The position numbers were made by a program, and so were the translations under genes. A DNA stretch of 64,000 nucleotides from Terriglobia bacterium. GTDB lineage: Bacteria > Acidobacteriota > Terriglobia > Terriglobales > Acidobacteriaceae. Where the stretch lies: assembly GCA_020073465.1 (NCBI GenBank), contig JAIQFC010000021.1, positions 62,001-126,000 of the forward strand, read 5' to 3'. This document shows positions 20,116 to 38,108 of the stretch, piece by piece; position 1 is the stretch's first letter, and each line of letters opens with the position of its first letter. The notes below the pieces were generated by a model. The model was not told the DNA's origin. It did not search any database and was given only the letters and a program-made list of their open reading frames with translations.

Positions 20116-21333
20116 ATGCGATCCTCCGTCGAAGGTCTTACCGCCAGTGCCCGTAGGGCCACTCTACTTATGGTTCTCGCGCTTGCGGCTGCAGCCGCGC
20201 AAACTGCCATACCGAAGGCGTCGCCGGTCCGCACGCATCTACAGCGGGCACAGGCGGCACTGACGGCCCACGACACGGAAACCGCCACGCAGGAGTTTCG
20301 TGCGGTTCTTACGCTCGACCCGCGAAATGCCGAGGCCCACGTCAACCTGGGCGTCATTGCATTTTCCCAGGGGGACGTTCGGACTGCCTCCGAGCATCTG
20401 CGCAAGGCTCTGGCGATACAGCCCTCGCTCACGCAGGCGCAGGCCTTGTTGGGTATCTGTGAGAAACGACTCGGCAGCAGTTCCGCCCAACGCCTCCTGG
20501 AAAGCTCTTTTGCGAAGCTGACGGATACAAACCTGCGCACCCAGGTGGGGAAGGAACTGATCGGCCTGTACTACCAGCGAGGCGACTCGGAGCGGGCTAT
20601 TCCCGTCATTCAGAAGCTTGTGGACCTAAATCCTGACAACGTGGAAATCCTGTACATGGCGCAGCGGCTCTACAAGGAGCTGGCCGACGACACGCTCGAT
20701 AAGCTGGCGGTACTGGCCCCCGGCTCAGCCCGCATGCAGCAGGTAATCGCAGAACGGCTCATCAATGCGGGCGACGCGGAAAGTGCGATCGACCATTTCA
20801 AGAAAGCCCTGGAGATCGATCCCAAGCTTCCCGGCGTGCGTTTCGAACTGGCGCAAGCCATCCTGGAATCCGCCAGGAGTAATCCTGCGGTCCAGGATGA
20901 AGCCGAGAAAGAGTTTGAAAGCGCCATCACCGCGGAAGGCGACAGCGCGAGTTTGCAGTGTGCTCTGGGCGGCATCGCAATGCTCCGATCCGACTCGGAT
21001 AAAGCCTTCTCTCACTACACGCGCGCATTCTCGATGGATCCCGGGTCTACGCAAGCCCAATTGGGGCTAGGCCAGGTTCTGATGACCATGGAGAAGCCGG
21101 AAGAGGCCAGGAAATATCTTGAGATGGCGGTTAAGTCCGATCCCCTGAACGGCACAGCTCACTACCGTCTTGCCTCCGCCTACAAACGTCTGCAAATGCC
21201 AGACCAGGCGCAGAAGGAAATGCGCTTGTTTCAGGAGATTAAAGACACCAAAGATCAAGTGAGAAAAATTTACCGGCAGATGAAGAGTCAATACCACACA
21301 GAACCCGGGGGAATGTCTGACAGTGAGGAGTAA
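20116..21333 (+). CDS. exported TPR-repeat protein
   Basis: About 405 residues from the ATG at 20116; an upstream ATG at 20035 would put a poor leader before the signal peptide and overlap the hairpin. A hydrophobic signal (LLMVLALAAAAAQ) is followed by tetratricopeptide repeats, for example AQAALTAHDTETATQEFRAV, NAEAHVNLGVIAFSQGDVRT and later GTAHYRLASAYKRLQMPDQA. TPR arrays bind partner proteins. Proteins of this sort often sit beside TonB receptors and glycosidases in Acidobacteriota. The next gene overlaps its end by 11 bases. Confidence 0.8.
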   Translation: MRSSVEGLTASARRATLLMVLALAAAAAQTAIPKASPVRTHLQRAQAALTAHDTETATQEFRAVLTLDPRNAEAHVNLGVIAFSQGDVRTASEHLRKALAIQPSLTQAQALLGICEKRLGSSSAQRLLESSFAKLTDTNLRTQVGKELIGLYYQRGDSERAIPVIQKLVDLNPDNVEILYMAQRLYKELADDTLDKLAVLAPGSARMQQVIAERLINAGDAESAIDHFKKALEIDPKLPGVRFELAQAILESARSNPAVQDEAEKEFESAITAEGDSASLQCALGGIAMLRSDSDKAFSHYTRAFSMDPGSTQAQLGLGQVLMTMEKPEEARKYLEMAVKSDPLNGTAHYRLASAYKRLQMPDQAQKEMRLFQEIKDTKDQVRKIYRQMKSQYHTEPGGMSDSEE

Positions 21334-23553: not shown

Positions 23554-26025
23554 TTAAGGCTTCACGTCCAGAATTGATTCATATTCCAGAATGGTCTCGA
23601 TCTCTTTCAGGTCGACAATCTCACCGCTCGGGGAGGGCGCAGGACGCGCACCCGCAGGAAGATAGATTGGCGCCTGGTTGCGCAAAGGCAGAACTTTCAG
23701 TTCAAGCCGATCCCACTGCCGACACGGAATCCGGTCCAATCCAATCAGCCAGGGAGTGCCATTGTAGAAATTGTCGGAGAACAGCTTGCCATCGACGTAG
23801 AAGCGAGCGACATCCCCTTCGTACGCAATCCGCAGGAACACTCTGCCGGCACCGCGCTCTACGCAAGGCACTTGGATCGCCCAGCTTGCGGCGGTCTCGA
23901 ACGCGGAATCGTCCGGAGCCAGGGCCACTTCCTTGCCCATCATCTCTTTGCCCATCCTGAGCGGAGGATCGGACCCCGCGTCTTGGTTCTTCTGAACTCG
24001 TGCCGAAATGCGGAGGGGTTGTGTACGCGCCGCATAGAGTTTGAAGATACCGTTCTCTCCGTCTGGAACAAAGCCGCCGCCGGCATGTTCCGGCGGCGGG
24101 AAGAAACCCGCTCTCAACTGCGACGGCTCAGTGGCCACCACATGAACCTGATCATGGTCGAAATATAGCTGGGCAAAGGACAAGATCAGCCGTTCCCGTC
24201 CAGCAATCTTCGCCTTCCACGTATTCAGGGCCTGCTCTTGCGACAAAACAACAATACTCACGCTTGTGCCATTTCCCTGACGGACCCGGATCGCGACCTG
24301 AGTTCCCGGCTCGATCCCGCTTACATAAGCGATTCCTCGCTCTCGGGCAATTTTCCCATGCAGGCTTTCGATCGAGGTGCCATCCTTCTCTTCGAAGGCA
24401 AATTCCGGTGAAATCCCAGGCCAGGCAAAAAAGACGAGCGTGTTCGGGTCGTCCAGCTTGCACAGGAGTTGCGCGGTTGCATAACGAAGCCGAATTCCGC
24501 CGGCGTCGAGATTCACCGGCCAAATGGCATACGCTCCACTGGGAACATTCACAGGAGTTCGAGGCACATCCACAACACTGGAAGGAAACTCCAGCCTGAC
24601 CTGGAAATTCTTTTGCTCCGCCAGCGGGTAAGTCCGTTCGTAGTTGTTGACGAAGATGTACCCATGATCATCCTGAATGCGTGCAGCCACGCGAGGCGTT
24701 GCGGTATCCCGCTTGCCTGTGGGCATTCGCCCGGGAAGGTACGAAGTCATGGGCGCCAGACTGGCGCCAAAGTCTCCTAGGAATAGATCGAAGGCCTTGA
24801 GCGTGCCGTACGACGGATTCATCTGCCCGAACTCGCCGAGAGGAGCCTGGAAGTCGTAGGATTTTATCGGCAGGTCGTTCGGGTAACCGGTCGCCTGCGA
24901 TTCCTGCAACGTGGTCTTCTTTCCCTCCGGATTCGTGCCCCCGTGAAACATGTAGTAGCCATACAGAACCACGCCCGATCCGAGTTTCACCACCTCCATG
25001 GCTGCGGTGTCACTGGGACTCAGGAGCGGTCGCCGGTGATAGGAGAGCTCCATCCCTCCACCCATCTCAGCGGTGAAGAATGGGTACGCAAGGTTTAGTG
25101 CATCGATATCAGGTCGTTTGGAGCGCAAATCATCGCCGACATTCTCCTCACACCGGATCTTTGTGAAGAAATAGTTCGGATTGGGCGGCAGATCCTCCAG
25201 GCTGCGCCACCAGAATCCGTCTGCGTATCCACCGAAGACCGGGAGCACATCACGCGAGGGAATGACCGCATTGTCCCATCCAGTAATGGTGTAGAAGGGA
25301 GCGTCCAGGCCCGCTTCGCGCGCCAGGTCCCGCAGTCTGAGAATGTGGTCGGCTCCCTTTCCCGGTCCGCGGGCGCTGTACTCATTTTCGATCTGAACAC
25401 CGAGGATCGGTCCGCCGTCCTTCCAGAACAGCCCTACTACCTGCCTGCCGATTTCGTGATAGAAGCGACCGACGGCGTCGAGATAAACGGGGTTGTTCTC
25501 TCGCGTGGCCGTCTTCTGGACCAGCCAGTCCGGAAGCCCCCCATTCCGCACTTCGCCGTGATCCCAAGGTCCAATGCGAATCCATACGTACAGGCCGTGT
25601 TTCGCGCAGAGTTCGACAAAACGCCTCAGGTTCCGCTGTCCTGTCCAATCGAATTGGCCCTCTATCTCCTCATGGTGAATCCAGAAAACATAGGTTGAGA
25701 TGATTTGGATCCCCGCGGCCTTCATTTTCAGAATTTCCTGTTCCCAGTCCGCCTCGGGATAGCGTGAATAGTGGAACTCACCCATCACGGGAAACCAGGG
25801 TTTCCCGTCCAGCGTCATGTAGCTGCTGTTGGCAGAGAGCACGTGGCCGTCAGGCGATTGGCCACCCACGGGAAACGGAAGCGGCGCGGGTTCGGGGGAC
25901 TTACTCCGCGCATCGATGACGATCGGGGCGGGCCGGACCTCGCCAGACAAACCTGCCGGCGTCAGCACGATGACTAGGAGCACAAACAAAGCCGCAAGCA
26001 GGCCAAGCCTGGGATTTAGCGTCAT
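23554..26025 (-). CDS. exported GH35 beta-galactosidase
   Basis: About 823 residues with a signal peptide or anchor (LGLLAALFVLLVIVLTPAG). The GH35 barrel is clear: GEFHYSRYPEADWEQEILKM, TYVFWIHHE, IRIGPWDHGEVRNGGLPDWL, acid/base Glu215 in VQIENEYS and nucleophile Glu320 in FFTAEMGGGM. C-terminal beta domains follow, including one ending in a galactose-binding-like fold (RIAYEGDVARFYVDGKLFSD). The ATG at 26025 is preferred over a TTG at 26046. It is convergent with the GH53-lectin gene and would release galactose from galactan oligomers. Confidence 0.92.
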   Translation of the reverse strand: MTLNPRLGLLAALFVLLVIVLTPAGLSGEVRPAPIVIDARSKSPEPAPLPFPVGGQSPDGHVLSANSSYMTLDGKPWFPVMGEFHYSRYPEADWEQEILKMKAAGIQIISTYVFWIHHEEIEGQFDWTGQRNLRRFVELCAKHGLYVWIRIGPWDHGEVRNGGLPDWLVQKTATRENNPVYLDAVGRFYHEIGRQVVGLFWKDGGPILGVQIENEYSARGPGKGADHILRLRDLAREAGLDAPFYTITGWDNAVIPSRDVLPVFGGYADGFWWRSLEDLPPNPNYFFTKIRCEENVGDDLRSKRPDIDALNLAYPFFTAEMGGGMELSYHRRPLLSPSDTAAMEVVKLGSGVVLYGYYMFHGGTNPEGKKTTLQESQATGYPNDLPIKSYDFQAPLGEFGQMNPSYGTLKAFDLFLGDFGASLAPMTSYLPGRMPTGKRDTATPRVAARIQDDHGYIFVNNYERTYPLAEQKNFQVRLEFPSSVVDVPRTPVNVPSGAYAIWPVNLDAGGIRLRYATAQLLCKLDDPNTLVFFAWPGISPEFAFEEKDGTSIESLHGKIARERGIAYVSGIEPGTQVAIRVRQGNGTSVSIVVLSQEQALNTWKAKIAGRERLILSFAQLYFDHDQVHVVATEPSQLRAGFFPPPEHAGGGFVPDGENGIFKLYAARTQPLRISARVQKNQDAGSDPPLRMGKEMMGKEVALAPDDSAFETAASWAIQVPCVERGAGRVFLRIAYEGDVARFYVDGKLFSDNFYNGTPWLIGLDRIPCRQWDRLELKVLPLRNQAPIYLPAGARPAPSPSGEIVDLKEIETILEYESILDVKP

Positions 26026-26228
26026 GGCTAAGGTAAACCGTGTCAAAACTTCAGATTAACAGTCCCGCCAGGGATCGTAATCCAACGAAGGTCGGATTGC
26101 GTCCCATCGACGGTCGGTCGGGAGTCGCTTAGCAGTGCGGAATCCACGTAGATCCGAAACCGGCGGAGGCAGGCACAGGTGCATCGGCATGGATCGAACA
26201 CCAATCCTGACACTGGATACACGCCCAT

Positions 26229-26246
26229 ATGTGATTGAAATCACAT
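26229..26246. promoter_or_regulatory. perfect CRP/FNR-type palindrome
   Basis: ATGTGATTGAAATCACAT is a perfect 18-base palindrome with 8-base arms. It contains TGTGA-N6-TCACA, the exact half-site arrangement of the E. coli CRP consensus. It ends 37 bases before the ATG at 26284 and lies about 200 bases upstream of the GH35 start. It could serve either gene; proximity favours the rightward operon. No CRP-family regulator gene is in the window. Confidence 0.6.
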
Positions 26247-26283
26247 GAAAATCTCGAAGGGCTTAGTAGTTTCTTAGTAATGA

Positions 26284-27204
26284 ATGCGCGCCCATAACTA
26301 CATAGAATGGCGCACGCGGCTCATGAACCCTAAGTGGAATGGCCAGTTCTCGTGTTTCGATCTCGTCGCTAAAACCGACGTGTGCGCGAGCAGTGTGGTT
26401 CGCGTCGGCGACATCGAGATCGGCGGCGACGACTTCGTCGTGATGGCAGGCCCGTGCGCGGTTGAGTCGGAGCGCCAGTTGTTGGAGACCGCCGAAGCGG
26501 TGGCCGAAGCAGGCGCACGCATTCTGCGCGGAGGCGCATACAAACCCCGCTCTTCACCGTACGCGTTCCAGGGTCTGGGCGTCGAAGGTCTGAGGATTCT
26601 GCGCAAAGCGCGAGAACAAACTGGGCTTGCGATCGTTACCGAGGCGATGAGCGAGGAAGATGTCGACTTGATCGCGGAGTATGCCGACCTCATGCAGGTG
26701 GGCACCCGCAGCATGGAGAACTACGCGTTGCTGGAGAAACTTGGCCGATGCGGACGGCCGGTGCTGCTGAAGCGGGGGATGACTGCCACATTGGAGGAAT
26801 TGCTCCGATCTGCGCAAGTGATCGCGGCCAGTGGGAATCGCCAGATTGTTCTCTGTGAACGCGGCATCCGAACATTTGAGACGGCGACCCGTAACACATT
26901 GGACATCGCTGCCGTGCCGGTGTTAAAGACCGTTTCGCACCTGCCCGTGATTGTCGATCCGAGCCACGCCGCTGGAGTGCGCTGCCTGGTTCCGGTCTTG
27001 GCACGGGCCGCTGCGGTCGTAGGTGCTGATGGACTCTTAGTCGAGGTGCATCCGTCGCCGGATCAGGCCATGAGCGACGGAGCCCAGTCGCTCACCTTCC
27101 GCAACTTCCGCGAGATGATGGATGATCTGCAGCCTTATCTGGCGATCCGGGAGGCTGCCCGGCGTCCTGGTCCGCATCTGGTCGCGGTCGGAGGAACAGA
27201 CTAG
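26284..27204 (+). CDS. aroF: 3-deoxy-7-phosphoheptulonate (DAHP) synthase, class I-beta
   Basis: A 306-residue enzyme of the AroA/KDO8P-synthase-like class that condenses phosphoenolpyruvate with erythrose 4-phosphate at the entry of the shikimate pathway. Active-site segments are [46 protein letters not shown] and [10 protein letters not shown]. The N terminus is about 45 residues, too short for the ferredoxin-like regulatory domain of T. maritima DAHPS, and there is no chorismate-mutase domain, so feedback control may be absent. ATG at 26323 is an alternative start. The stop overlaps the next start by one base (TAGTG). Its place as first gene of an operon for exported proteins is odd. Confidence 0.93.
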
Positions 27205-28562
27205 TGCGGGCGCAGCCCATCGTGGTGGGGCTGGTCTCGCTCATCATTATTACTGCGTTCGCGCCCATGCGCTCCGTGCTCTCCTCGGGTCCGGATGCAC
27301 CTGCAATCCTATTCACCGTCGCGAAACACTACGAGCCTCTGGCCTGGACTCACGGTGCGGACCGATTTAGCTCCGATGCAATCATCTTTCTCCAAGACGT
27401 AACCGGACGGCATCCTCTAGCCCCAAATTTTCCAGCATCTGCCGATCCCACTGTTTCCTTCGACGGGAAGAGAGTTTTGTTCGCCGGCAAGCAGAAGGCT
27501 CAGGACCCGTGGCAGATCTGGGAAGCTACTTTGACCGGCGACTCGCTGCATCAGGTCACATCATGCGCGGAGGACTGCGTTCGTCCCCTCTACCTGCCGG
27601 ACGACCGCATTGTGTACGCAAAGAAGACCGGGGGCCGGTTTGTGATGGAAGCTGCCGACCGGGCCGAGGGCAAGACCGTGCAATTGACCTACGGTCCGGG
27701 AAACTTCCTGCCAGCCGATGTTCTGCGCGATGGCCGCATCTTGTTTGAAGCGACGTACCCATTCGGAACCAGTGGCGCTCCGGAACTCTACACCGTCTAT
27801 TCGGACGGCAGCGGAGTCGAGTCCTACCGCTGTGATCATGGCAAAGCGCGTCACTCCGGCCGGCAGATCGCCTCAGGAGACATCGTGTTTGTCTCCGGCT
27901 CCGGCCTGGCGCGGTTTACATCGTCGCGGGCGGAAGAAGTTCGCATCTCAGCTCCGGCCGGAGAGTTCCCCGGAGAGATCGCTGAGACGGTTTCGGGCGA
28001 CTGGCTCGTGGCGTGGCGGGATGGGGCAACCCCATTTCAATTGATGTGGTGGAAGCCGGGCACCGGCACTCTGCGGCCAGCCGTGGCCGAGCCGAATGCG
28101 AATGCAGTGCAGCCGACGCTGGTTGTGGAGCGGACGGTGCCGAAGCGGCACCCCTCGGCCTTGCATGACTGGCCGAATGCCAACCTTCTTTGTCTCAATG
28201 CATACACCTCGAAGTACAAATTTGCTGCCGGATCAATCCACTCACTTCGGCTCTACACGCGTGACCACACCGGGGCCACGAAGCTGCTGGGCTCAGCACC
28301 CGTGGAACGTGACGGATCATTCTTTGTTCAAGTCCCGACGGAGCAACCGCTGCAGATGGAATTGCTCGACAGCTCCGGCAAAACCCTGAAGCGGCAGGCG
28401 GGATGGTTCTGGATGCGCCGCGGCGAGCAACGGGGATGCGTCGGATGCCACGCGGGCCCGGAAACTGCACCGGAGAATGCCGTGCCCATGGTCCTGCTCA
28501 AATCCACGACTCCCGCCGACATGACGGGCGCTGCGGGCCACAGTGCTTCGGGAGGGCAATAG
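27204..28562 (+). CDS. exported TolB-like propeller protein with one CXXCH haem motif (HzsA-like)
   Basis: A 452-residue product starting with GTG. The N-terminal hydrophobic segment (VVGLVSLIIITAFAPM) acts as signal or anchor. Residues about 60-300 show TolB-like propeller blades (DPTVSFDGKRVLFAG, WQIWEATLTGDSLHQVTS, RPLYLPDDRIVYAKK, DVLRDGRILFEAT). Near the C terminus GCVGCHAGPET (Cys412) gives a c-type haem site. The design resembles proteins annotated by similarity to the hydrazine synthase alpha-subunit middle domain. I do not claim hydrazine chemistry. The next gene overlaps its 3' end by about 20 bases if GTG 28543 is used. Confidence 0.65.
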   Translation: MRAQPIVVGLVSLIIITAFAPMRSVLSSGPDAPAILFTVAKHYEPLAWTHGADRFSSDAIIFLQDVTGRHPLAPNFPASADPTVSFDGKRVLFAGKQKAQDPWQIWEATLTGDSLHQVTSCAEDCVRPLYLPDDRIVYAKKTGGRFVMEAADRAEGKTVQLTYGPGNFLPADVLRDGRILFEATYPFGTSGAPELYTVYSDGSGVESYRCDHGKARHSGRQIASGDIVFVSGSGLARFTSSRAEEVRISAPAGEFPGEIAETVSGDWLVAWRDGATPFQLMWWKPGTGTLRPAVAEPNANAVQPTLVVERTVPKRHPSALHDWPNANLLCLNAYTSKYKFAAGSIHSLRLYTRDHTGATKLLGSAPVERDGSFFVQVPTEQPLQMELLDSSGKTLKRQAGWFWMRRGEQRGCVGCHAGPETAPENAVPMVLLKSTTPADMTGAAGHSASGGQ

Positions 28563-30222
28563 CTTGAAGACGCGGATCGTAGTCACGCCAAGCCGGGTCG
28601 CGGTAACCCTGGCACTGCTGTTGATATCTTCTGCTCTGGCGCAATCGCCAGGGGCGGCCTCGCCGGGCGCGATCCGTTTCGACGACGCAACCGCAAAGTC
28701 AGGTATTCAGTTCACGCATAACTTTGGCGCCCAACGCCTGGGTTCATTGCTCGAGAGCACCGGAGGCGGCTGCGTCTGGTTCGACTACAACAACGACGGC
28801 CTGCCGGATCTCTACGTGGTCAGCGGGAAGCCGCTCGAAGAGGGGATGCATCCATATCCGCTGAAGCAGCTCCCGGAGGTTGCACCGCACAATCATCTGT
28901 ACAGGAACAACGGCGACGGAACCTTCACCGACGTTACCGACAAAGCCGGCGTCGCGGCAAACATTTACGGAATGGCCGCGATTGCCGCCGACTTCGACAA
29001 CGACGGCTTCGTCGATCTGCTGGTTACCGGCTACGGGCGAGCGATTCTCTATCGCAACCGGGGAGACGGCACGTTCGAAGACGTGAGCGCAAAAGCCGGA
29101 ATCAAGGTTGACGGCTGGTCGATCAGTTCCGCATGGCTCGACTACGATCGTGACGGCTGCGTCGACCTGTTCGTCGGCCGATATGTAAAGTTCGATCCCA
29201 AATATCGCAACTATTACGCTGCGGACAACTATCCTGGCCCACTCGACTACGCCGCCGACACGAACCGTCTTTTTCGCAACAACTGCAATGGAACGTTCAC
29301 CGACGTCACCGACAAGTCGGGAATCGGCGCCTACAAAGGCCGCACGATGGGCGTCACCGCTGCCGATTTTGATGGTGACGGCTATCCCGACATCTACGTC
29401 GCCAATGACAAGACGGAGAACTTCCTTTTTCACAACAAGCACGACGGCACGTTTGAGGAGATCGCCGCCGACGTCGGTGCTGCCTATGGTCAAAACGGCG
29501 AGAACACTTCAGCGATGGGCCCAGTGTTTGCCGATATCGACGGCGACGGCCATGTCGATCTCTGGGTGACCGACTCGAAATACAACCGCCTGATGCGCAA
29601 CACGGGCCAGAACGGGTTCGAAGACATCGGGCCAAGTTCGGGAATTTCGCAGGCCACGGCGCAATACACCAGTTGGGGCACAGGCATTTACGATTTCGAC
29701 AATGATGGCTGGCTCGACATTCTGATCTTCCACGGCGGACTGATCCACTTAGTCCCGCAAGAGCAGTCTTTGTTTCGAGGGCTGGGAAGTGGCAAGTTTG
29801 CCGATGTTTCGCGCGATGCGGGTTCGGTGCTCGACGTAAAGACGGTCTCACGTGGGGCATGTCTTGCCGACTACGACAACGACGGACGGATCGACGCGTT
29901 CGTCGTGAACCTGGGCGCGCCCGCGACTCTGCTGCACAACGTTACCCAGAACAGCAATCACTGGCTGACCGTGAAGTTGAAAGGGAAGAAGAGTAATCGC
30001 GACGGTATTGGTGCACACCTGGAGTTGCTCTCCGGCGGACGGAAGCAGATCGCTGAGCGCATCGCAGGATCGGGCTATCTCTCGCAGGATGATGGCCGCG
30101 TTCATTTCGGCCTGGGAAATGCGACGAAAGCCGACAAGCTTACGATCCACTGGCCCAGCGGGCACGAGCAGGTTTTGGAGAATCCGGCAGTGGATCGCGT
30201 TCTCACGGTAGAGGAGCCGTAG
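28543..30222 (+). CDS. exported CRTAC1/UnbV-type FG-GAP propeller protein
   Basis: About 559 residues: signal peptide (VAVTLALLLISSALAQS), then seven Ca-binding FG-GAP/VCBS loops of the type DYNNDGLPDLYV, DFDNDGFVDLLV, DYDRDGCVDLFV, DFDGDGYPDIYV, DIDGDGHVDLWV, DFDNDGWLDILI and DYDNDGRIDAFV. This is one per blade of a seven-bladed propeller. A C-terminal ASPIC/UnbV domain follows (WLTVKLKGKKSNRDGIGAHL and onward). Function of the family in bacteria is largely unknown; extracellular protein-protein or ligand binding is likely. TTG at 28564, seven bases after GGGAGGG, may be the real start rather than GTG at 28543. The next gene starts directly after the stop. Confidence 0.88.
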   Translation: MLREGNSLKTRIVVTPSRVAVTLALLLISSALAQSPGAASPGAIRFDDATAKSGIQFTHNFGAQRLGSLLESTGGGCVWFDYNNDGLPDLYVVSGKPLEEGMHPYPLKQLPEVAPHNHLYRNNGDGTFTDVTDKAGVAANIYGMAAIAADFDNDGFVDLLVTGYGRAILYRNRGDGTFEDVSAKAGIKVDGWSISSAWLDYDRDGCVDLFVGRYVKFDPKYRNYYAADNYPGPLDYAADTNRLFRNNCNGTFTDVTDKSGIGAYKGRTMGVTAADFDGDGYPDIYVANDKTENFLFHNKHDGTFEEIAADVGAAYGQNGENTSAMGPVFADIDGDGHVDLWVTDSKYNRLMRNTGQNGFEDIGPSSGISQATAQYTSWGTGIYDFDNDGWLDILIFHGGLIHLVPQEQSLFRGLGSGKFADVSRDAGSVLDVKTVSRGACLADYDNDGRIDAFVVNLGAPATLLHNVTQNSNHWLTVKLKGKKSNRDGIGAHLELLSGGRKQIAERIAGSGYLSQDDGRVHFGLGNATKADKLTIHWPSGHEQVLENPAVDRVLTVEEP

Positions 30223-32127
30223 ATGCAACTGGCGACTACATGCCGTGGCAAAGCAAGGCTGATCGCGAGTCTCGCCCCTGTGTTTGCATTGATTTCTGCA
30301 TTGATGTTGCTGGCGCCTACGGCCAAACCCGCGCGGGCGCAATCCGAGCCCGAAAACAACAAGCGTTACCTGTCGCCCATCGAGATGGCGCTATCACCGG
30401 ATGGGCGCCTGCTCTATGTGGTGTGCCAGGCCAGCGACGAACTGCGTGTCGTGGATATTCAATCCGGCAAGGTCGTGGATGTTGTTCCGGTCGGCCACGT
30501 GCCGCGCGGAATCGTGTTATCGCCCGATGGCCGGCAGATTTACGTGACGAACGCCTGGTCCGACACGGTTTCGGTGATCGACGCCGCAACTCTGAAAGTC
30601 GTGCGGACCCTGCCCACTGGCCTCGAACCGACTGGCATTGTTTCAGACCGGAGTGGCCAGACTCTGTACGTCGCGAACCGCCTGAGCAACGACATCTCTG
30701 TGATCGATGTAAACACTGGCCAGGAGACCAAACGACTGCTGGCCGGGCAGGGCGCAAGCTATCTCGCGTTGTCTCCGGATGGAAAGTGGATATACGGCAC
30801 GCACATCTATCCAAACCACGGAGCCTTCCGGGCACAGCCGAACTCCGAAATCACGGTCATCGACACGGCGCGGCAGGCCGTCGTCGAGCGCAAGCGACTG
30901 CACAACGTCGCAGGCGTGTTTCATGTGGCACTATCTGCCGATGGCAAGCTCGGCGTGGCAACCCAGCTTCGTCCCAAGAACCTCATCCCACTGGCGCACG
31001 TTGAACACGGATGGGTGTTCGGCGATTCGCTGACCCTGTTCGGCGAGGATGTCGGCGGGACGGTTCAGGTCCCTATAGACGAGCTTGACCGCTACTTCGC
31101 GCTGCCTTGGGGTGTGGCCATCACCCCGGACAAGGCGAAGATGTTTGTGACTACAGCCGGGTCCGAGAATGTGACGGTCATCGACGTGCGAAAGCTGTTG
31201 GGCTTCGCGCGCACACGGCCGCAGTCCTTCGTGAATGACCTTTCCGCGTCGGCGAACTATGTAACTGCAAGAATTCCCGTCGGCCATAACCCCCGCGGTA
31301 CCTTGTTGTCGCAGGACGGCAAGCGGTTGTACGTAGCGAACCGCCTCGATGACAACCTCTCCGTCATCGATACGTCGACCGAGAGAGTAGTTTCGACGAT
31401 CGATCTAGGCGGGCCAAGAACCGTCAGCGCGCTTCGCCGCGGGGAACAGATTTTCTTCACCGCCAATTACGCATTTCAAGGCCAGTTCGGCTGCGCCAAC
31501 TGCCATCTGGACGCGACCATTGACGGTCTGCAGTGGGATCTCGAACCCGACGGTTTCGGCAAAGACATCGTTGACAATCGATCACTGGAGAACCTGGCGG
31601 GCACCGAACCGTTCAAGTGGAACGGCGGGAATCCCGACATGCCGACCGAGTGCGGGCCCCGCACCGAGAAGTTCTTCTACCGCTCGCAGAGTTACAACCA
31701 GCAGGAACTCACCGACCTGGTGACATTTGTTTATGCGCTTCCCTATCGCCCCAATCGTTATCGCATGGCCAATGGAGAGTTGACCCCGGCGCAGGAGCGA
31801 GGCAAGGCGATCTTTGAGAGGACAACATACAAGAACGGCCAGCCGATTCCACAGAAGAACCAGTGTGCGTTTTGCCACAGCGGGCCCAAGTACACAAATC
31901 AGCAGCAATTCGATGTCGGCACCGCCAAATCTACCGACCGCTCGCCGCTGGTCGATGTGCCTCAACTCTCCAACACAGTCTATTCCGGGCCGTACCTGCA
32001 TGACGGCTCGGCGCGTTCGCTTGAAGAAATCTGGACCGTGTTCAATCCGAAAGATACACACGGCGTGAGCAACGATCTGACCAAAGACGAATTGAACGAT
32101 CTCATCGAGTATTTGAAAACGTTATGA
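30223..32127 (+). CDS. YVTN propeller fused to a di-haem MauG/cytochrome-c-peroxidase-like domain
   Basis: A 634-residue exported protein: signal peptide (LIASLAPVFALISALMLL, cleaved after ARAQ), then a YVTN-type seven-bladed propeller (about 45-410; repeats such as LSPDGRQIYVTNAWSDTVSV and DGKRLYVANRLDDNLSV). The C terminus has two c-type haem motifs, CANCH (Cys424) and CAFCH (Cys548), arranged as in MauG and bacterial di-haem peroxidases, with PQLSNTVYSGPYLHDGSARS near the second. Such domains oxidise a partner protein or small molecule using peroxide or high-valent iron. It abuts the preceding gene and overlaps the next by 4 bases. Confidence 0.88.
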   Translation: MQLATTCRGKARLIASLAPVFALISALMLLAPTAKPARAQSEPENNKRYLSPIEMALSPDGRLLYVVCQASDELRVVDIQSGKVVDVVPVGHVPRGIVLSPDGRQIYVTNAWSDTVSVIDAATLKVVRTLPTGLEPTGIVSDRSGQTLYVANRLSNDISVIDVNTGQETKRLLAGQGASYLALSPDGKWIYGTHIYPNHGAFRAQPNSEITVIDTARQAVVERKRLHNVAGVFHVALSADGKLGVATQLRPKNLIPLAHVEHGWVFGDSLTLFGEDVGGTVQVPIDELDRYFALPWGVAITPDKAKMFVTTAGSENVTVIDVRKLLGFARTRPQSFVNDLSASANYVTARIPVGHNPRGTLLSQDGKRLYVANRLDDNLSVIDTSTERVVSTIDLGGPRTVSALRRGEQIFFTANYAFQGQFGCANCHLDATIDGLQWDLEPDGFGKDIVDNRSLENLAGTEPFKWNGGNPDMPTECGPRTEKFFYRSQSYNQQELTDLVTFVYALPYRPNRYRMANGELTPAQERGKAIFERTTYKNGQPIPQKNQCAFCHSGPKYTNQQQFDVGTAKSTDRSPLVDVPQLSNTVYSGPYLHDGSARSLEEIWTVFNPKDTHGVSNDLTKDELNDLIEYLKTL

Positions 32128-33245
32128 AGATGAAACTGAGACTGCTGTTTGCGATGCTGGCTGCCGTCATCGCGATTTCCCTCGCGAATGCCCAAGACAT
32201 GCCCCGCTTCCGCTGGGACAACTTCACAACCGCCAACGGTCTTCCCGACAACCATGTTTTCTGCGTACTGGTCGACGGGAGCCGCGTCTGGGCTGGCACG
32301 GAGAACGGGCTAGGCCTGTACGAAAACGGCGCATGGAAAGCATTTCGTCCCGTCGACGGTCTGGCTCACCAGGCCGTGCTGTCGCTCGCGCTCGACAAGC
32401 GTACCGGGGACCTGTGGGTCGGCACGATGGGTGGGCTGAGCCGCATCTCCGCCGGACGGATTGATAACTTCACGCAACTGAATTCGGGCTTGAGCAACGA
32501 CATCGTGTACGGCGTCGGCGTGCAGGGAGATTTCGTCTGGACCGCCACGGCCGCCGGAGCCAGCCGCTTGAATACGCGTACCGGGCAGTGGGCACTCTTC
32601 AACGAGCGCAACACCCCGATGTACGAGATCTGGACTTACGCCGTCAGCCCCGCCGAAGACAAGGTTTACTACGCGGTCTGGGGCGGCGGAGTTCTCGAAT
32701 ATGACGTCAAAACCGAGCGCTGGAAGGACTACAACGATCCCGACGGCGAAACCGAACTGGTCTTGATGAAGGACCAGGGGCTTATTCACGAGATCACAAC
32801 ATCGGTCAGTTATGTCGACAAGATTCTCTGGGTCGCGACTTACTTCGGTGCCAGCCGCTACGACGGCCGTTACTGGCATAACTTCCTTCAGAAAGACAGC
32901 GGCCTGCCCAGCAACTTCCTGAACCAGATCAAAGCCGTGGACGGCAATCGCGCATGGTTCTCCACCGACAAGGGACTGGCTTATTACGACGGCACAAACT
33001 GGGCGGTCTATCGGCCCGCGCTCGACACGCACAAGCCGGAGATGGAGGTTCGCGACGCAGCCGGCACCGTGACGAAGATCGCGGTGCAAAGTGCTCCGGC
33101 CCACAACTACGTTCTCGGAGTCGATTTCCAGGGAGATGACCTTTGGGTGGCGACGGCCAAGGGCTTGAGCCACGGCATTCGGCAACACGGTCCGACACAG
33201 ACCGCACAAGTTTTGCGCGCACGGCAGTCGATACGGAAGAAGTGA
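32124..33245 (+). CDS. exported two-component-regulator-propeller protein without kinase
   Basis: A 373-residue product with a signal peptide (LLFAMLAAVIAISLANAQ) and Reg_prop repeats such as GLPDNHVFCVLVDGSRVWAG, LWVGTMGGLSRIS, KGLAYYDGTNW and LWVATAKGLSHG. It resembles the periplasmic sensor half of propeller kinases but has no membrane helix at the C terminus and no kinase domain, so it is probably a soluble binding protein. ATG overlaps the stop of the di-haem gene (ATGA), so it is translationally coupled. Confidence 0.85.
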   Translation: MKMKLRLLFAMLAAVIAISLANAQDMPRFRWDNFTTANGLPDNHVFCVLVDGSRVWAGTENGLGLYENGAWKAFRPVDGLAHQAVLSLALDKRTGDLWVGTMGGLSRISAGRIDNFTQLNSGLSNDIVYGVGVQGDFVWTATAAGASRLNTRTGQWALFNERNTPMYEIWTYAVSPAEDKVYYAVWGGGVLEYDVKTERWKDYNDPDGETELVLMKDQGLIHEITTSVSYVDKILWVATYFGASRYDGRYWHNFLQKDSGLPSNFLNQIKAVDGNRAWFSTDKGLAYYDGTNWAVYRPALDTHKPEMEVRDAAGTVTKIAVQSAPAHNYVLGVDFQGDDLWVATAKGLSHGIRQHGPTQTAQVLRARQSIRKK

Positions 33246-33265
33246 ATTCTTGGAGGAGTCGTCCT

Positions 33266-33748
33266 ATGAATGTTCAGGAGTTGCTAGCGGAAGTAACCAC
33301 GGCGCCCGTTGTGAAGCGCGCCATCACCAATCACTCGGCGCTGAATGAAGCCTACGCTTACGGCAGCGCGTTCTCGCGCGGCATGCGGATCGATTTGAAC
33401 GGGCTGACCATCCTGTTGATCTCGGGCACGGCCAGTATCGACGATCAGGGCCGAACCGTGCACGTGGGCGACTTGCGCGCCCAGCTCCGTCGCACGTTCG
33501 AGAACATCAGCGCTCTGCTGGCCTCCGAAGGCGCAACGTGGCACGACATCGTGCGCACCACGTGCTATCTCCGCGACATCGAGCGCGACTACCAGGCCTT
33601 CAATGAAGAGCGGACCGCGTTCTACAAGGAGCAGGGGCTGGATCCGCTGCCTGCTTCGACCGGCATTCAGGCGATTCTCTGCCGTCCGGACCTGCTCATT
33701 GAGATTGAAGCGATTGCCATGTTCCGCAACGAATCGCACACGGAGTAA
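33266..33748 (+). CDS. RidA/YjgF/YER057c/UK114-family protein
   Basis: A 160-residue product from the ATG at 33266, chosen because GGAGGA lies 8-9 bases before it; a longer in-frame reading to 33143 lacks family similarity. The chorismate-mutase-like trimeric fold is suggested by LLISGTASIDDQGRTVHVGD, LRAQLRRTFENISALLASEG, DIVRTTCYLRDI and PASTGIQAILCRPDLLIEIE. The key Arg of RidA deaminases would lie in the C-terminal region; here LCRPDLLIEIEAIA supplies one candidate. Most members hydrolyse reactive enamines or imines; some have specialised catabolic roles. Cytosolic, between two exported-protein genes. Confidence 0.85.
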   Translation: MNVQELLAEVTTAPVVKRAITNHSALNEAYAYGSAFSRGMRIDLNGLTILLISGTASIDDQGRTVHVGDLRAQLRRTFENISALLASEGATWHDIVRTTCYLRDIERDYQAFNEERTAFYKEQGLDPLPASTGIQAILCRPDLLIEIEAIAMFRNESHTE

Positions 33749-33752
33749 CGCT

Positions 33753-35615
33753 ATGCGTCGCGTGCTGGTATCGGTTGTTGCCGCTGTGCTCGGGTCCACG
33801 GTGTGGGCCCAGACGCCTGTTCCATGCTCCTGCGGGAGCAATCCTCCAGGTCCGCCTGCACCCCGGTCTCTGAAACCCTACACCGGCGCGCCCGACGACC
33901 TGCGGCCGTTTTCGAAGTTCACCACGCCCTACTACGAGCACTACCAGAATCTCATCGAGTACAACGGCGCGGCTCGCGACGTACCGGACCCCGACCTGAA
34001 AGATTTGTCTGAGATTCGCATCGGCTTCGTCGGCCCGCTCTATGCACACCCCGACCAGGCGTTGGGCAATCGCATGCTCAACGGCGCTACCTTGGCCGTT
34101 GAGGAGGCGAACGCGGCTGGCGGGTACGGTGGTAAACCGTTCAAGCTGATGTTGCATAACGATTCAGCAATCTGGGGCGCAGCCAGCAACGAGATCGTCA
34201 AGATGGTTTACGACGAAAAGGTCTGGGCCATGTTCGGATCGATCAGCGGTGACACAACCCACATCGCACTGCGTGTCACTCTGAAAGCCGAAACCCCGAT
34301 CGTCAACAGCGCCTCCACTGATCCCACCATTCCCGAGACCATCATCCCGTGGTACTTCACTGATCTTCAGGACGACCGCCTGCAGGGCTACACGCTCGCG
34401 CGGCACATCTATACCGAACTCGGTCTGAAGCGCATCGCGATCCTGCGCGTGAATGACCGCTACGGGCGCTTTGGAGTCATCAAGTTCCGTGATGCTTCCC
34501 GCCGGTTGGGCCATCCCGTGGTGATCGAACAGAAATTTCGGCCCGGCGATACCGATTTCCGCCACCAACTTCAGGTGATCGAAGATTCGCGCGTAGACGG
34601 AATCGTGCTCTGGACCGACATTGGTCCAGCCGCGATGATCCTGCAGCAGATGCAGGAACTGGGGATGAAGCAGCGCGTGTTCGGCAGTCACCGCACCATC
34701 GGCGACGAACTCGTCAAGCTGGCTGGCCCTGCCGCAGAAGGCTTCGAGGCTGTTTTTCCCTACGATCCTACCCGCACCGACCCGCGCTGGCTCGACTTCA
34801 ATTCCCGCTATGAGGCCCGCTTTCACGAGAAGCCGGATCACTTCGCCGCCCTCGCCTACGATGCCATGCAGATTCTGCTGGACGCGATCTGCCGTGCGGG
34901 CTTGAACAAGGGCAGGATCCGGGATGCACTGACCGGCGTGACGAGCCACAAGGGCGTGACTGGCGATATGGTCTTCGATCCGAACTGCAAGAACATCGCT
35001 CCGCTCTTTCTCGCCCGCGTACACAATGGAAGCATCGACTACCGCCGCATCACGATGGAGAAACCGTACGCTCGCGTGGGAGAAAACGGAGTGCAGTACG
35101 CCGGCCCAACGCTGGCCGAGGAGAAGACTGAGAAACTGCAAATCGGCGTCTTCGGGCCGCGAGCCGATGAAGTCGTCCACTCAACTGCAGTCATCCGTTT
35201 ACTCGATGCGATCAACAGTGGCAAGGGCCAGCATATCTCGCTGATTGGAATTCCCTCTCAGCTTTCCTGGGGAAAGGCTTCCGGCGAACTCGTGAAGGCG
35301 GTTTACCAGGATCATGCTCTGGCGTTGATCGCTCTCGACCGCCCTTCCAGTCACCTGGCCGAACAAATCGCCGTGAAGTCGTTCATTCCTGTAGTCGCCA
35401 TCTCCTCCGACCGCGCGCTCACTTCAACCAACATTCCGTGGATCTTCCGCCTGCCGGAAGGTACGCCGATCGAGCAAGCGTTGAGCAGTCTCGCGGAAGC
35501 CATCAACCGTGCCGGGCCGAACCGCGAAAAGATTCGTGACCTGCTGGCTTCGGGTGAACGCGTCGGCGGAACAAGCTTCGAATCGACTGGCGAGTATCGT
35601 CAATCGGCTCGATGA
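33753..35615 (+). CDS. periplasmic branched-chain amino-acid-type solute-binding protein, double domain
   Basis: A 620-residue product from the ATG at 33753, four bases after the ridA stop. Signal peptide ends near STVWAQ. Residues about 85-425 form a full type I binding protein (Peripla_BP_6): IRIGFVGPLYAHPDQALGN, GATLAVEEANAAGGYGGKPF, AMFGSISGDTTHIAL, RVNDRYGRFGV and SHKGVTGDMVFDPN. Residues about 460-620 look like a second, incomplete copy (LQIGVFGPRADEVVHSTAVI to FRLPEGTPIEQAL). No ABC permease or ATPase gene is in the window, so it may act as a receptor or use transporters elsewhere. It is the last gene of the propeller operon. Confidence 0.82.
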   Translation: MRRVLVSVVAAVLGSTVWAQTPVPCSCGSNPPGPPAPRSLKPYTGAPDDLRPFSKFTTPYYEHYQNLIEYNGAARDVPDPDLKDLSEIRIGFVGPLYAHPDQALGNRMLNGATLAVEEANAAGGYGGKPFKLMLHNDSAIWGAASNEIVKMVYDEKVWAMFGSISGDTTHIALRVTLKAETPIVNSASTDPTIPETIIPWYFTDLQDDRLQGYTLARHIYTELGLKRIAILRVNDRYGRFGVIKFRDASRRLGHPVVIEQKFRPGDTDFRHQLQVIEDSRVDGIVLWTDIGPAAMILQQMQELGMKQRVFGSHRTIGDELVKLAGPAAEGFEAVFPYDPTRTDPRWLDFNSRYEARFHEKPDHFAALAYDAMQILLDAICRAGLNKGRIRDALTGVTSHKGVTGDMVFDPNCKNIAPLFLARVHNGSIDYRRITMEKPYARVGENGVQYAGPTLAEEKTEKLQIGVFGPRADEVVHSTAVIRLLDAINSGKGQHISLIGIPSQLSWGKASGELVKAVYQDHALALIALDRPSSHLAEQIAVKSFIPVVAISSDRALTSTNIPWIFRLPEGTPIEQALSSLAEAINRAGPNREKIRDLLASGERVGGTSFESTGEYRQSAR

Positions 35616-35803
35616 CCGCGTCGTCCTTATAGGCACGGAGAAACCCTCCCTTCCTCTCGTGCACTCTACCCCTCCACAGTCCGCCAGCAAGAGCGTATCC
35701 TATGGCTCGGACGGCCAGGCTCCGTCTCGTCTTTCCCTTCTGTATTTCTGGAACGGAACGAGAAAGACGCATAACAACTGGCGTGATGTGCCGAGGAGGG
35801 GAG

Positions 35804-36844
35804 ATGCCGACTCGAATTGGCCGTCGTGAGTTCCTGCTCCGTGCGGGAGCAATGGCTGGCGCTGTGGCTGCGTCCCCTGCCCTCAATGCCCTGGCGTACA
35901 GGTTGCCGCCCTGGGCGCCGGACCTTCCGGGCTCTAATGAGCAAGCATCTGCAAAGAAGGCGGAAGCTCACAGCCTGACCTCCCCCTTCCGCGTGTCCAT
36001 CATCAATGATGAAATCTCGCAGGATTTTGGCCGCGCCTGCGAGGTTGCCGCGCGCGAGTTCGGAATGACGTGGATCGAACTGCGTGGTATGTGGAAGAAG
36101 AACATCGTCAACCTGGACTCGAAGGAAATTGCCGAAGCGCGGCGCATTCTCGACAAGTACGGATTGCGGGTGACCGACATCGCCAGCCCGCTGTTCAAGG
36201 TCGACTGGGCTGGCGCCCCGCGATCAAAGTACAGCGAGCACAATGATTTCCACGCCGACTTTACCTTCAACCAGCAGGATGAAGTGCTCGAGCGCTCCCT
36301 TGATTTGGCGAAAGCCTTCGGCACGGATCGCGTTCGCTGCTTCGATTTTTGGAGACTCGACGATCAGGCTCCGTATCGCGCCGCCATCAATGAGAAGCTG
36401 CTGGAAGCCGCCACCAAGGCCGGCAAGAAGGGCATCACTCTGCTTCTGGAGAATGACGGTGGCCTGAATACCGCTACGGGTGCCGAAGCGACCAAAGTTC
36501 TGAATGCGGTGAAATCCCCTTACGTCATGCTGAACTGGGACCCGGGCAATGCCGCAGCCTGGGGGGAAAAAGCATATCCCGACGGCTACAATCTTCTGCC
36601 CAAGGATCGGATCGGCCACTGCCACTGCAAGGATGCGGTCAAGAGCGCCAAAGGCTACGACTGGGCTCCGATGGGGAAAGGGATCGTCGACTGGACGGGG
36701 CAGTTCAAAGCGCTGGAGCGCGATGGTTATCACTTCGGGGTGAGTCTGGAAACCCACTGGGACGGCGGCGGTACCCCGGAAGAGTCGTCGCGCCAGAGTT
36801 GGGCAGGGATGAAGCAGCTTTTGCAGCAGGCTGAAGCTCTGTGA
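35804..36844 (+). CDS. TAT-exported sugar phosphate isomerase/epimerase-like TIM barrel
   Basis: A 346-residue product from the ATG at 35804, preceded by GAGGAGGGGAG. The start RIGRREFLLRAGAMAGAVAA is a twin-arginine signal. The remainder is an AP-endonuclease-2/xylose-isomerase-like barrel: IINDEISQDFGRACEVA, FGMTWIELRG, GITLLLENDGG (metal-binding Glu), MLNWDPGNAAAWG, HCHCKDAV and FGVSLETHW. Metal ligands Glu, Asp, His and Glu appear intact, so it is probably an active epimerase or isomerase working outside the cytoplasm. A leftover 188 bases upstream holds no clear gene. It is followed by another TAT substrate. Confidence 0.85.
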   Translation: MPTRIGRREFLLRAGAMAGAVAASPALNALAYRLPPWAPDLPGSNEQASAKKAEAHSLTSPFRVSIINDEISQDFGRACEVAAREFGMTWIELRGMWKKNIVNLDSKEIAEARRILDKYGLRVTDIASPLFKVDWAGAPRSKYSEHNDFHADFTFNQQDEVLERSLDLAKAFGTDRVRCFDFWRLDDQAPYRAAINEKLLEAATKAGKKGITLLLENDGGLNTATGAEATKVLNAVKSPYVMLNWDPGNAAAWGEKAYPDGYNLLPKDRIGHCHCKDAVKSAKGYDWAPMGKGIVDWTGQFKALERDGYHFGVSLETHWDGGGTPEESSRQSWAGMKQLLQQAEAL

Positions 36845-36863
36845 GCAGTGGAGGAGTTCCACG

Positions 36864-38108
36864 ATGACAGAAAGCACGAGACGGGATTTCTTGCAGCGAG
36901 CGGCTTTAGGCACGGCCGCTTTTCTCGCCTATCCACCTTCCAGTGTTCTGGGCGCCAATGACCGGATTCGGATTGGCATGATCGGCGTGGGCAACCGCGG
37001 ACAGGATCTGCTCGAGGAAGTGCAGAAAGTTCGCGGTGTGCAACTCGTTGCCATGGCCGATGTCTACAGCCGGCGCCGCGACGAGGCGAAAAAGATGGCT
37101 CCCGGCATTCAGACCTTCGACGACCATCGCCGCCTTCTCGACATGAAGAATTTGGATGCTGTCATCGTAGCGAGTCCCTTGCACACGCACGCCCGGCATT
37201 TCCTGGACACGCTGGCAGCCGGCAAAGATCTTTACGCTGAGAAGACCATGACCTGGTCGATTCCTGAAGCCGAGCAGTGCCTCGCTGCGGCAAAAGACTC
37301 CGGGCGTGTAATTCAGATCGGGCTGCAGTGGGAAAGTTCGGGGGCGTTGGCGGATGCGAGAAAGTGGATCAGAGACGGAGCGGTGGGGAGGGTCACGCAG
37401 GTGAATTCGTGGATGAGCCGCAACACTCCTCACGGGAAAGGCCAGTGGGCGCGCGCCGTTCCCTCGGACTGTACCGCACAAAACGTAAACTGGAGCGCAT
37501 TCCTCAACGGCCGGCCGGACCGGCCCTTCGATCCTTTTCGCTTGATCAACTGGCGTTTGTTCTGGGAGTTTTCGGGCGGAAATGCGACGGAGAATATGGT
37601 CCACCAGATCGCGTGGATTATGACTGCTCTGGATCTGCCACTACCCTCCGCCGCGTACATGTCGGGAGGAGTTTTCTCGGAGAAGGACGGCCGTGAGGTG
37701 CCCGACACCATCGCGGTCACTTTGGATTTCCCCAATGACATCGTGGTGACCTGGCAGTCAACCTTTAGCAACAACCACTACGGCTTAGGCGAGCACATCC
37801 TGGGCAGTGACGGCACGATCGAGCACACTTGGGGAGAATCGGACATGGTGAAGGGCGAATCCGGCGAAGGTGTCCGGTACTTTTCCGAGAGAGTAAACCG
37901 TCCGCAAGGGCCGGCACTCACAGGCAAGACTCCAGACCAGGATCACATGACGAACTGGGTCGATTGCATCCGCACCCGCAAGACCCCGAACGCGTCGGCC
38001 GAGATTGGCTACCGCTCTGCTGTTGCCGTGCACATGGCCAACCTGGCTTACCGGCAAAAGCAGCGCGTCACGCTGGAAATGGCGAAAACGGTTAAACCTG
38101 AGTTCTGA
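36864..38108 (+). CDS. TAT-exported Gfo/Idh/MocA-family oxidoreductase
   Basis: A 414-residue product. TRRDFLQRAALGTAAFLA is a twin-arginine signal. The Rossmann domain follows: RIRIGMIGVGNRGQDLL (about 35-51), AMADVYSRRRDEA, DAVIVASPLHTHARHFLDTL and the EKTM motif, in which the family's catalytic-type Lys follows Glu. The C-terminal alpha/beta domain contains GGNATENMVHQIAWI. Such exported members carry bound NAD(P) and may act on glycosidic sugars by an oxidation-elimination type chemistry; GH109 is one example. GGAGG lies 7 bases before the ATG. It sits 19 bases after the TIM-barrel gene, so both probably act together. Confidence 0.88.
   Translation: MTESTRRDFLQRAALGTAAFLAYPPSSVLGANDRIRIGMIGVGNRGQDLLEEVQKVRGVQLVAMADVYSRRRDEAKKMAPGIQTFDDHRRLLDMKNLDAVIVASPLHTHARHFLDTLAAGKDLYAEKTMTWSIPEAEQCLAAAKDSGRVIQIGLQWESSGALADARKWIRDGAVGRVTQVNSWMSRNTPHGKGQWARAVPSDCTAQNVNWSAFLNGRPDRPFDPFRLINWRLFWEFSGGNATENMVHQIAWIMTALDLPLPSAAYMSGGVFSEKDGREVPDTIAVTLDFPNDIVVTWQSTFSNNHYGLGEHILGSDGTIEHTWGESDMVKGESGEGVRYFSERVNRPQGPALTGKTPDQDHMTNWVDCIRTRKTPNASAEIGYRSAVAVHMANLAYRQKQRVTLEMAKTVKPEF

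Follow-up and report, generated by a model that had tools for sequence, protein, structure and literature searches.

An operon of seven genes lies at positions 26284–35615 of the DNA analysed here, a stretch of 64,000 nucleotides of contig JAIQFC010000021.1 from the Terriglobia bacterium assembly GCA_020073465.1 (the window; Table 1). Two of its products, an alpha-like protein and a beta-gamma-like fusion, are members of the superfamily of hydrazine synthase (HZS), an enzyme called unique to anammox bacteria in the available text of PMC12607021. A third product, of Rid fold, looks like a small chorismatase from its active-site residues, and together with an extra DAHP synthase it suggests a chorismate-derived aromatic acid, e.g. 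3-hydroxybenzoate. The genes recur together in several phyla, which suggests a widespread pathway. We tentatively favour, at a little less than an even chance, one conserved system of two halves, in which a cytosolic branch would lead from chorismate to an aromatic and an exported haem complex of the HZS superfamily would use that aromatic.

Two operon proteins belong to the HZS superfamily

For the alpha-like protein, PF18582 scored above its cut-off, and a TolB-like propeller is followed by the HZS_alpha haem domain. The profile of the alpha family matched the Kuenenia chain 5c2v_A with an E value of 3.8e-68, and HZS was the top match of the predicted fold. The beta-gamma-like fusion contains one seven-bladed YVTN propeller (about residues 50–390) and one di-haem MauG-type domain (about residues 396–634). 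The beta part aligns along its whole length, to residues 14–350 of 5c2v_B (E 5e-49), which is also the top match of the predicted model (TMt 0.87), and the gamma part matches 5c2v_C with an E value of 6e-23. For both proteins, profiles and predicted folds rank HZS first. An initial annotation, made from the letters alone, had recognised the TolB-like propeller with CXXCH and the YVTN propeller with its di-haem domain, but missed the kinship of the first to HZS alpha and of the second to HZS beta and gamma. Against the NCBIfam models, the scores were 56.7 bits for HzsA (cut-off 800), 192.2 bits for HzsB (560), 89.5 bits for HzsC (625) and 231.4 bits for the beta-gamma fusion NF052342 (1250).

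The three CXXCH sites annotated initially are present, one in the alpha-like protein (codons 28437–28451) and two in the gamma-like part (codons 31492–31506 and 31864–31878). The CXXCH His of haem alpha-I, a zinc ligand in HZS, is kept in all 43 alpha rows, and both gamma haem motifs, together with the distal His of haem gamma-II (equivalent codon 31999–32001), are kept in all 38 gamma rows. The third Cys at haem gamma-I (equivalent codon 31651–31653; its number, 165, is inferred from the numbering of Asp168) is Cys in the window and in 26 of the 38 rows. HZS is described as having Tyr591 as the proximal ligand at haem alpha-I, Asp168 beside haem gamma-I and three cysteines (PMC12607021, available text). 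The Tyr591 position is Tyr in 0 of the 43 rows and Glu in the window, and the Asp168 position is Asp solely in the anammox row of the 38 and Thr in the window. Hydrazine synthesis by the operon proteins is unlikely because these two catalytic residues are not kept. The window alpha-like protein contains no alpha-II cytochrome domain; a second alpha CXXCH is present in the relatives L036, L171 and L173.

The window fusion carries no haem parts beyond this core, and the operon holds just the three core sites. In the relatives L012 and L033–L036, eight additional CXXCH motifs were found at the N-terminus of the beta-gamma protein, and in L037, L038 and L040 four were found at the C-terminus. The two extra parts tested (L035 and L040) are of the cytochrome c554 type (PF13435, 111 and 68 bits); therefore, in those hosts the exported protein probably exchanges electrons through haem chains.

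In a 59-row tree rooted at the midpoint, the cluster family is recovered as a single clade of 39 rows (100/99). Four anammox rows are sister to it inside a 43-row clade (100/99), and 16 further HZS-like rows are located on the opposite side of the root. These 16 rows (L163–L170, L172, L175–L180 and L047) represent a second beta-gamma set of planctomycetes and one acidobacterium, with different neighbours; those of L163, for example, include an FGE-sulfatase-like protein and a cytochrome c that carries two CXXCH.

Like HzsABC of Kuenenia (5C2V), the window proteins combine an alpha propeller and CXXCH middle domain, a seven-bladed beta propeller and a di-haem gamma domain; the gamma-II ligands and, in many rows, the third Cys at gamma-I are shared, and beta and gamma are fused as in some anammox bacteria. 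They differ from it in the lack of Tyr591, Asp168 and the alpha-II domain, in forming a separate clade, and in an operon that adds two propellers, one or more binding proteins, the Rid-fold protein and DAHP synthase. The same subunits, the fused beta-gamma and the conserved gamma haem ligands would all suit a true hydrazine synthase, reducing nitric oxide to hydroxylamine at gamma-I and condensing it with ammonium at alpha-I, in anammox-like metabolism or in detoxification. A PF13447 search of the genome also returned one eight-CXXCH protein of 455 residues (G000:C25:2816-3685, L190), from the Pfam family to which HAO belongs, and PMC10732223 proposes new anammox bacteria on the basis of planctomycete hzs-like genes. 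However, the two catalytic residues are missing as described, the alpha-like protein carries a single CXXCH and lacks an alpha-II domain, the genes alongside encode chorismate enzymes and binding proteins, and the anammox rows fall outside the 39-row clade; in the available text of PMC11266412, the use of anammox hidden Markov models (HMMs) left the hzs genes of UBA1845 unconfirmed. We consider a true hydrazine synthase very improbable. Anammox in this organism was likewise rejected as the leading explanation, Tyr591, Asp168 and the alpha-II domain being absent; no search was aimed at hydrazine dehydrogenase.

A second alternative is a di-haem enzyme of the peroxidase or MauG type, mounted on a propeller scaffold, which would reduce peroxide or oxidise a partner protein while the chorismate genes serve general aromatic supply. 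The gamma-like domain is of the cytochrome c peroxidase/MauG type, and HZS gamma itself belongs to this fold family (PMC12607021, available text). On the other hand, the fusion scored far under the cut-offs of the MauG and MbnH models, the alpha and beta folds match HZS first, and the RidA and DAHP synthase genes occupy several positions in the loci. We regard this alternative as unlikely. The identity of the fusion with MauG, which acts in tryptophan tryptophylquinone formation, was rejected (TIGR03791, 25.6 bits, cut-off 443.85), and a protein-modifying role of this type, as suggested initially, finds no support in these results. L-NosZ and quinohemoprotein amine dehydrogenase were also rejected, the scores being below their cut-offs. 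The accessory set of alcohol dehydrogenases dependent on pyrroloquinoline quinone (PQQ) consists of a YVTN propeller and binding proteins. The window likewise pairs an exported YVTN propeller and a binding protein; it differs from that set in that the fusion reached 150 bits against TIGR03866 (cut-off 287), by which a PQQ-accessory identity was rejected, and no quinoprotein dehydrogenase was noticed among the recurring families.

The Rid-fold protein carries chorismatase-type residues

The sixth gene had been annotated as RidA. The Rid fold holds (PF01042), but residues of the type found in the chorismatase Hyg5 had been overlooked. The equivalents of Gly240, Cys327 and Glu334 of Hyg5 are Gly54, Cys139 (codon 33680–33682) and Glu146 (33701–33703) in the window, and these positions are invariant in the 19 aligned Rid-fold rows. 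The pattern C-x(2-4)-[LW][LV]-x-E is present in all 65 Rid hits from the retrieved loci (L029–L127, 58 hits; L163–L182, 7 hits), SGTA[SA] in 64 and a PASTGI-like motif in 57. In Hyg5 the essential acid is Glu334; the type that forms 3-hydroxybenzoate is recognised by the Gly and Cys (PMC7170507, available text). The Cys position is Leu in Escherichia coli YjgF, and Ile and Leu in the two paralogues encoded in the window's own genome. In L033, L050 and L124, RidA is replaced by a two-domain chorismatase-like protein; the top PDB matches of these proteins, and of those of the distant loci L175–L177, are Hyg5 and FkbO.

The window protein shares the three equivalent residues with CH-II (Hyg5) chorismatase, and some relatives also share the two-domain architecture; the window chain, however, consists of one Rid domain and overall stands nearer to Rid proteins. 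As the Rid-fold profile scores the YjgF fragment above the Hyg5 fragment, we take the protein to be descended from the Rid family and to carry active-site residues of the chorismatase type. The same ranking, and the Rid proteins at the top of its sequence matches, would fit an ordinary imine deaminase that guards an amine-linked step unrelated to chorismate. The Arg of the RidA PARS motif is the substrate residue of imine deaminases. This Arg is not kept: YjgF has PARS, the window has PAST, and most of the 19 rows have PAST or PAAT, with Ser or Ala in its place. The Hyg5 Cys pattern in every locus Rid hit compared with the two paralogues, the two-domain replacements and the frequent presence of DAHP synthase in the same locus also speak against a deaminase, which in our judgement is improbable, about as much so as the peroxidase.

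The DAHP synthase scored over the curated cut-offs of NF006421 (411.5 bits, cut-off 335) and TIGR01361 (364 bits, cut-off 267.75). It aligns from position 71 of the 338 model positions; the N-terminal part is absent, which we interpret as the loss of a regulatory region. Among 36 operon copies, the GPC, KPR and SH motifs are kept in all, E-x-H in 32 and S[DN]xxQ in 25.

The gene setting is conserved across phyla

The initial annotation had proposed looking for the same gene order in other genomes, and it was indeed recovered, in Acidobacteriota and beyond. Our scan of named genomes gave at least 379 confirmed relatives, and the best 80 of them were taken as loci; because of this choice, the sample is biased towards the cluster clade. 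Two pairs of loci (L030/L103 and L035/L053) are the same places twice, the gene calls in the relatives' loci are longest open reading frames (ORFs), and L046 contains a masked stretch. Forty-two loci had complete flanks (at least 5.5 kb on each side), and in these the same-strand genes within 9 kb were counted. Beside beta-gamma, we found alpha in 40 of them, UnbV in 40, Reg_prop in 41, the binding protein in 41, RidA in 26 and DAHP synthase in 17. By phylum, assigned from record titles with the remainder counted as Acidobacteriota, these loci comprise 21 Acidobacteriota, 9 Planctomycetota, 6 Bacteroidota, 5 Verrucomicrobiota and 1 labelled Chlorobiota; the metagenome-assembled genome (MAG) with the last label falls among the Bacteroidota rows of the tree. 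Since the arrangement recurs across many genomes and phyla, it is beyond chance.

The exact gene order of the window was found in 13 of the 80 loci. The RidA gene lies 5' of alpha, between Reg_prop and the binding protein, or 3' of the binding protein; the DAHP synthase gene opens the cluster or closes it, except in L109, where it stands between the genes for RidA and the binding protein. These varying positions have the look of repeated recruitment, which argues for a functional link. DAHP synthase and RidA are also located near the distant HZS-like beta-gamma genes of L164–L166, and a chorismatase-like protein adjoins those of L175–L177. In many relatives, the double Peripla_BP_6 protein is split into two genes.

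With the window beta-gamma as query (E ≤ 1e-40), relatives were found in 20 of 396 Acidobacteriota genomes, the window's own genome counted, and in 2 of 296 Bacteroidota genomes, one of which is the centre genome. The flanks of 20 Acidobacteriota places (in 18 genomes) contain the same neighbours in most cases. A beta-gamma-like gene is present in 43 of 240 Verrucomicrobiota genomes, of which 39 have it at only 25–36% identity to the window. With an anammox query (1e-20), 53 of 343 Planctomycetota genomes were found, and 20 of these are anammox bacteria by identity. As the limits differ, these prevalence figures are not comparable between phyla. Carriers include Maribacter arenosus CAU 1321 (L072), and close beta-gamma relatives are present in Maribacter luteus. 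Spread by plasmids was rejected: in 72,556 plasmid records there was one distant match (26% identity, E ≤ 1e-40). It is NZ_AP025309.1:77138-78889, annotated as a c-type cytochrome, on a 105 kb plasmid of Aureibacter tunicatorum.

Further families recur around the cluster. A TPR and FG-GAP/UnbV protein of about 1,150 residues is located near it in 23 loci (e.g. L072:16117-19722 and L126:702-4259) and abuts the operon in some Bacteroidota (L072, L075, L088 and L125). An amidase (PF01425, 325.8 bits) is near the cluster in 14 Acidobacteriota loci (e.g. L126:4288-5718), and in 9 of the 14 it adjoins DAHP synthase on the same strand. Neither stands alongside the window operon; the nearest relative of the TPR-UnbV giant in this genome is on an unlinked contig (G000:C33:82703-86389, 47% identity). 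These two families do not decide between the readings. Near four loci we also found a CN-hydrolase.

Operon layout and control

As listed in Table 1, all seven genes read rightward, and neighbours overlap or are spaced by at most 20 bases, in agreement with the packed operon described initially. Position 26229, given there as its beginning, is not the start of the first gene, which lies downstream of a palindrome. For the RidA-like and binding proteins, the longest ORFs begin too far upstream, and the starts were reset to the ATG codons at 33266 and 33753. Signal-peptide-like N-termini were recognised by eye in the alpha-like, UnbV, beta-gamma-like, Reg_prop and binding proteins and in neither DAHP synthase nor the RidA-like protein.

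Table 1. Features of the operon and its upstream region in the window
Feature	Position	Strand	Remarks
Perfect CRP-like palindrome TGTGA-TTGAAA-TCACA, TGTGATTGAAATCACA	26230–26245		38 bases 5' of the DAHP synthase start codon
DAHP synthase, type I-beta, 306 residues	26284–27204	+	NF006421, TIGR01361
HZS alpha-like protein	27204–28562	+	1-base overlap with DAHP synthase; putative signal peptide, TolB-like propeller, HZS_alpha middle domain
FG-GAP/UnbV (ASPIC) propeller, putatively exported	28543–30222	+	20-base overlap if GTG start; PF13517, PF07593
HZS beta-gamma-like fusion	30223–32127	+	Abuts the UnbV gene; putative signal peptide
Reg_prop propeller without kinase, putatively exported	32124–33245	+	4-base overlap; PF07494, 37.8 bits
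Single-domain Rid-fold (RidA-like) protein, 160 residues	33266–33748	+	20-base gap; PF01042
Double Peripla_BP_6 binding protein, putatively exported, 620 residues	33753–35615	+	4-base gap; PF13458

The sequence TGTGA-N6-TCACA occurs once in the window. Among 81 scanned relatives' loci, exact copies were found near the first recognised gene in seven (L032, L069, L073, L095, L101, L116 and L126); six of these have a spacer unlike that of the window, and six of the seven loci are among the 20 with DAHP synthase first. Two further loci are one mismatch away. Over L029–L127 there are 11 exact palindromes, compared with 1.56 expected under uniform base use, and the remaining four (L050, L078, L104 and L124) are located away from the first gene. 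It is reasonable to infer a putative control site of the CRP family in a subset of the Acidobacteriota. No FNR-type site was found in the window, the palindrome being of the CRP type. A simple scan for sigma-70-like promoters on the plus strand (25500–37000), a weak test in this phylum, gave no site.

Reg_prop domains are usually sensor parts. Together with the CRP-like site and a LuxR-type response regulator near four loci (in L084, 193 bases 5' of DAHP synthase), the Reg_prop protein could belong to a sensor in which it and the binding protein detect an aromatic or amino acid while the haem proteins set the redox state. However, regulators recur in few loci (the response regulator in four and a PadR-like protein, recognised by eye, in three), and three haems, with eight or four more in some relatives, fit catalysis better. 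We hold a sensor to be quite improbable, and the sensing role contemplated in the initial annotation finds no support in these results.

Outside the recurring set, a xylose-isomerase-like TIM barrel and a Gfo/Idh/MocA oxidoreductase are located directly 3' of the operon (35702–38108). On the 5' side, there are two large ORFs, assigned by eye: a galactanase-like one with a ricin-type lectin part (21323–23509, plus strand) and a beta-galactosidase-like one (23554–26046, minus strand).

A proposed two-half system

In the two-half system that we favour, the extra DAHP synthase would drive carbon into chorismate in the cytosol. The Rid-fold protein, acting as a chorismatase-like lyase, would then convert chorismate, or a close relative of it, to an aromatic acid, most likely 3-hydroxybenzoate, and pyruvate. 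The aromatic acid would leave the cell, where the Peripla_BP_6 protein or proteins would hold it or deliver it to the haem complex. We infer that the alpha-like and beta-gamma-like proteins form this single complex outside the cytoplasmic membrane, in which the UnbV and Reg_prop propellers would be additional subunits. The complex would carry out a redox reaction that converts the aromatic or uses it as an electron carrier. Electrons would move between the bis-His gamma-II haem and the gamma-I haem, along a wire lengthened in several relatives by the fused c554-type part. As in HZS, a second active site would be at the alpha haem; its chemistry probably differs from that of HZS, because the proximal Tyr and the gamma Asp are absent. 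What the computation shows directly is which genes are present and linked, the kinship with the HZS superfamily in sequence and fold, the conservation of haem ligands and the residues of chorismatase type; the joint assembly, the Rid-fold product and its delivery, and the redox direction and partner are proposed from these. The periplasmic redox complex with an aromatic link put forward initially is retained here in its exported redox proteins, its several propellers, its three haems and its tie to the aromatic pathway.

Several observations weigh against this proposal. A same-strand RidA gene is missing in 16 of the 42 flank-complete loci and DAHP synthase in 25, and the TPR-FG-GAP/UnbV giant (23 loci) and the amidase (14) have no place in the scheme. 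The whole Rid-fold profile scores the YjgF fragment at 56 bits and the Hyg5 fragment, over two domains, at 44 bits; the top PDB matches of the single-domain protein are Rid proteins, and the CH-II chorismatase model TIGR04444 gives this single-domain protein 35.8 bits (cut-off 325). Among solved chains, those closest to the binding protein bind branched-chain amino acids (4gnr, E 2.9e-31), and no exporter for the aromatic was seen. The third gamma Cys is replaced by Asp in 10 and by Ala in 2 of the 38 rows. In addition, the unlinked eight-CXXCH PF13447 protein leaves room for a nitrogen substrate. Such a substrate appears in a further possibility, in which gamma-I would make a reactive species from a nitrogen oxide or another small oxidant; the species would move to the alpha haem and there be joined, instead of to ammonium, to a chorismate-derived carbon compound that the binding proteins hold, giving an aminated, hydroxylated or N-O aromatic outside the cytoplasm. 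Hydrazine synthesis in anammox bacteria would then be a derived offshoot of an older aromatic pathway. We consider this improbable, although slightly less so than a sensor.

Relation to reported hzs-like genes

The following draws on the available text of the papers cited. The hzs genes are used as anammox markers. A 2023 paper that reported hzs-like genes from Phycisphaerae and KSB1 described, for Phycisphaerae MAGs, an hzsBC-like fusion preceded by hzsA, and it proposed new anammox bacteria (PMC10732223). It also suggests that HZS-like enzymes are perhaps a broader family with other substrates. A 2024 paper using anammox HMMs did not confirm the anammox claim (PMC11266412). The Phycisphaerae and KSB1 genes share with ours the fused beta-gamma with hzsA upstream, and two of our cluster carriers (L108 and L118) are named OFTM303 and OFTM243, which is the MAG prefix of that paper. 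The two studies differ in that PMC10732223 proposes anammox for seven MAGs, whereas we describe seven genes in at least four phyla; in its main text, as available, the words RidA, propeller, FG-GAP, ABC transporter, DAHP and synteny are absent. Among the papers listed by our searches of an open-access library, we recognised no description of this gene cluster.

Taken together, the cluster warns against inferring anammox from hzs-like matches alone. It points to an exported aromatic redox pathway that our searches of open-access papers did not turn up, and, as a named strain, Maribacter arenosus CAU 1321, is among the carriers, its function may be testable in cultured bacteria. A widespread sister family of HZS with a conserved gene setting would show a possible origin of HZS.

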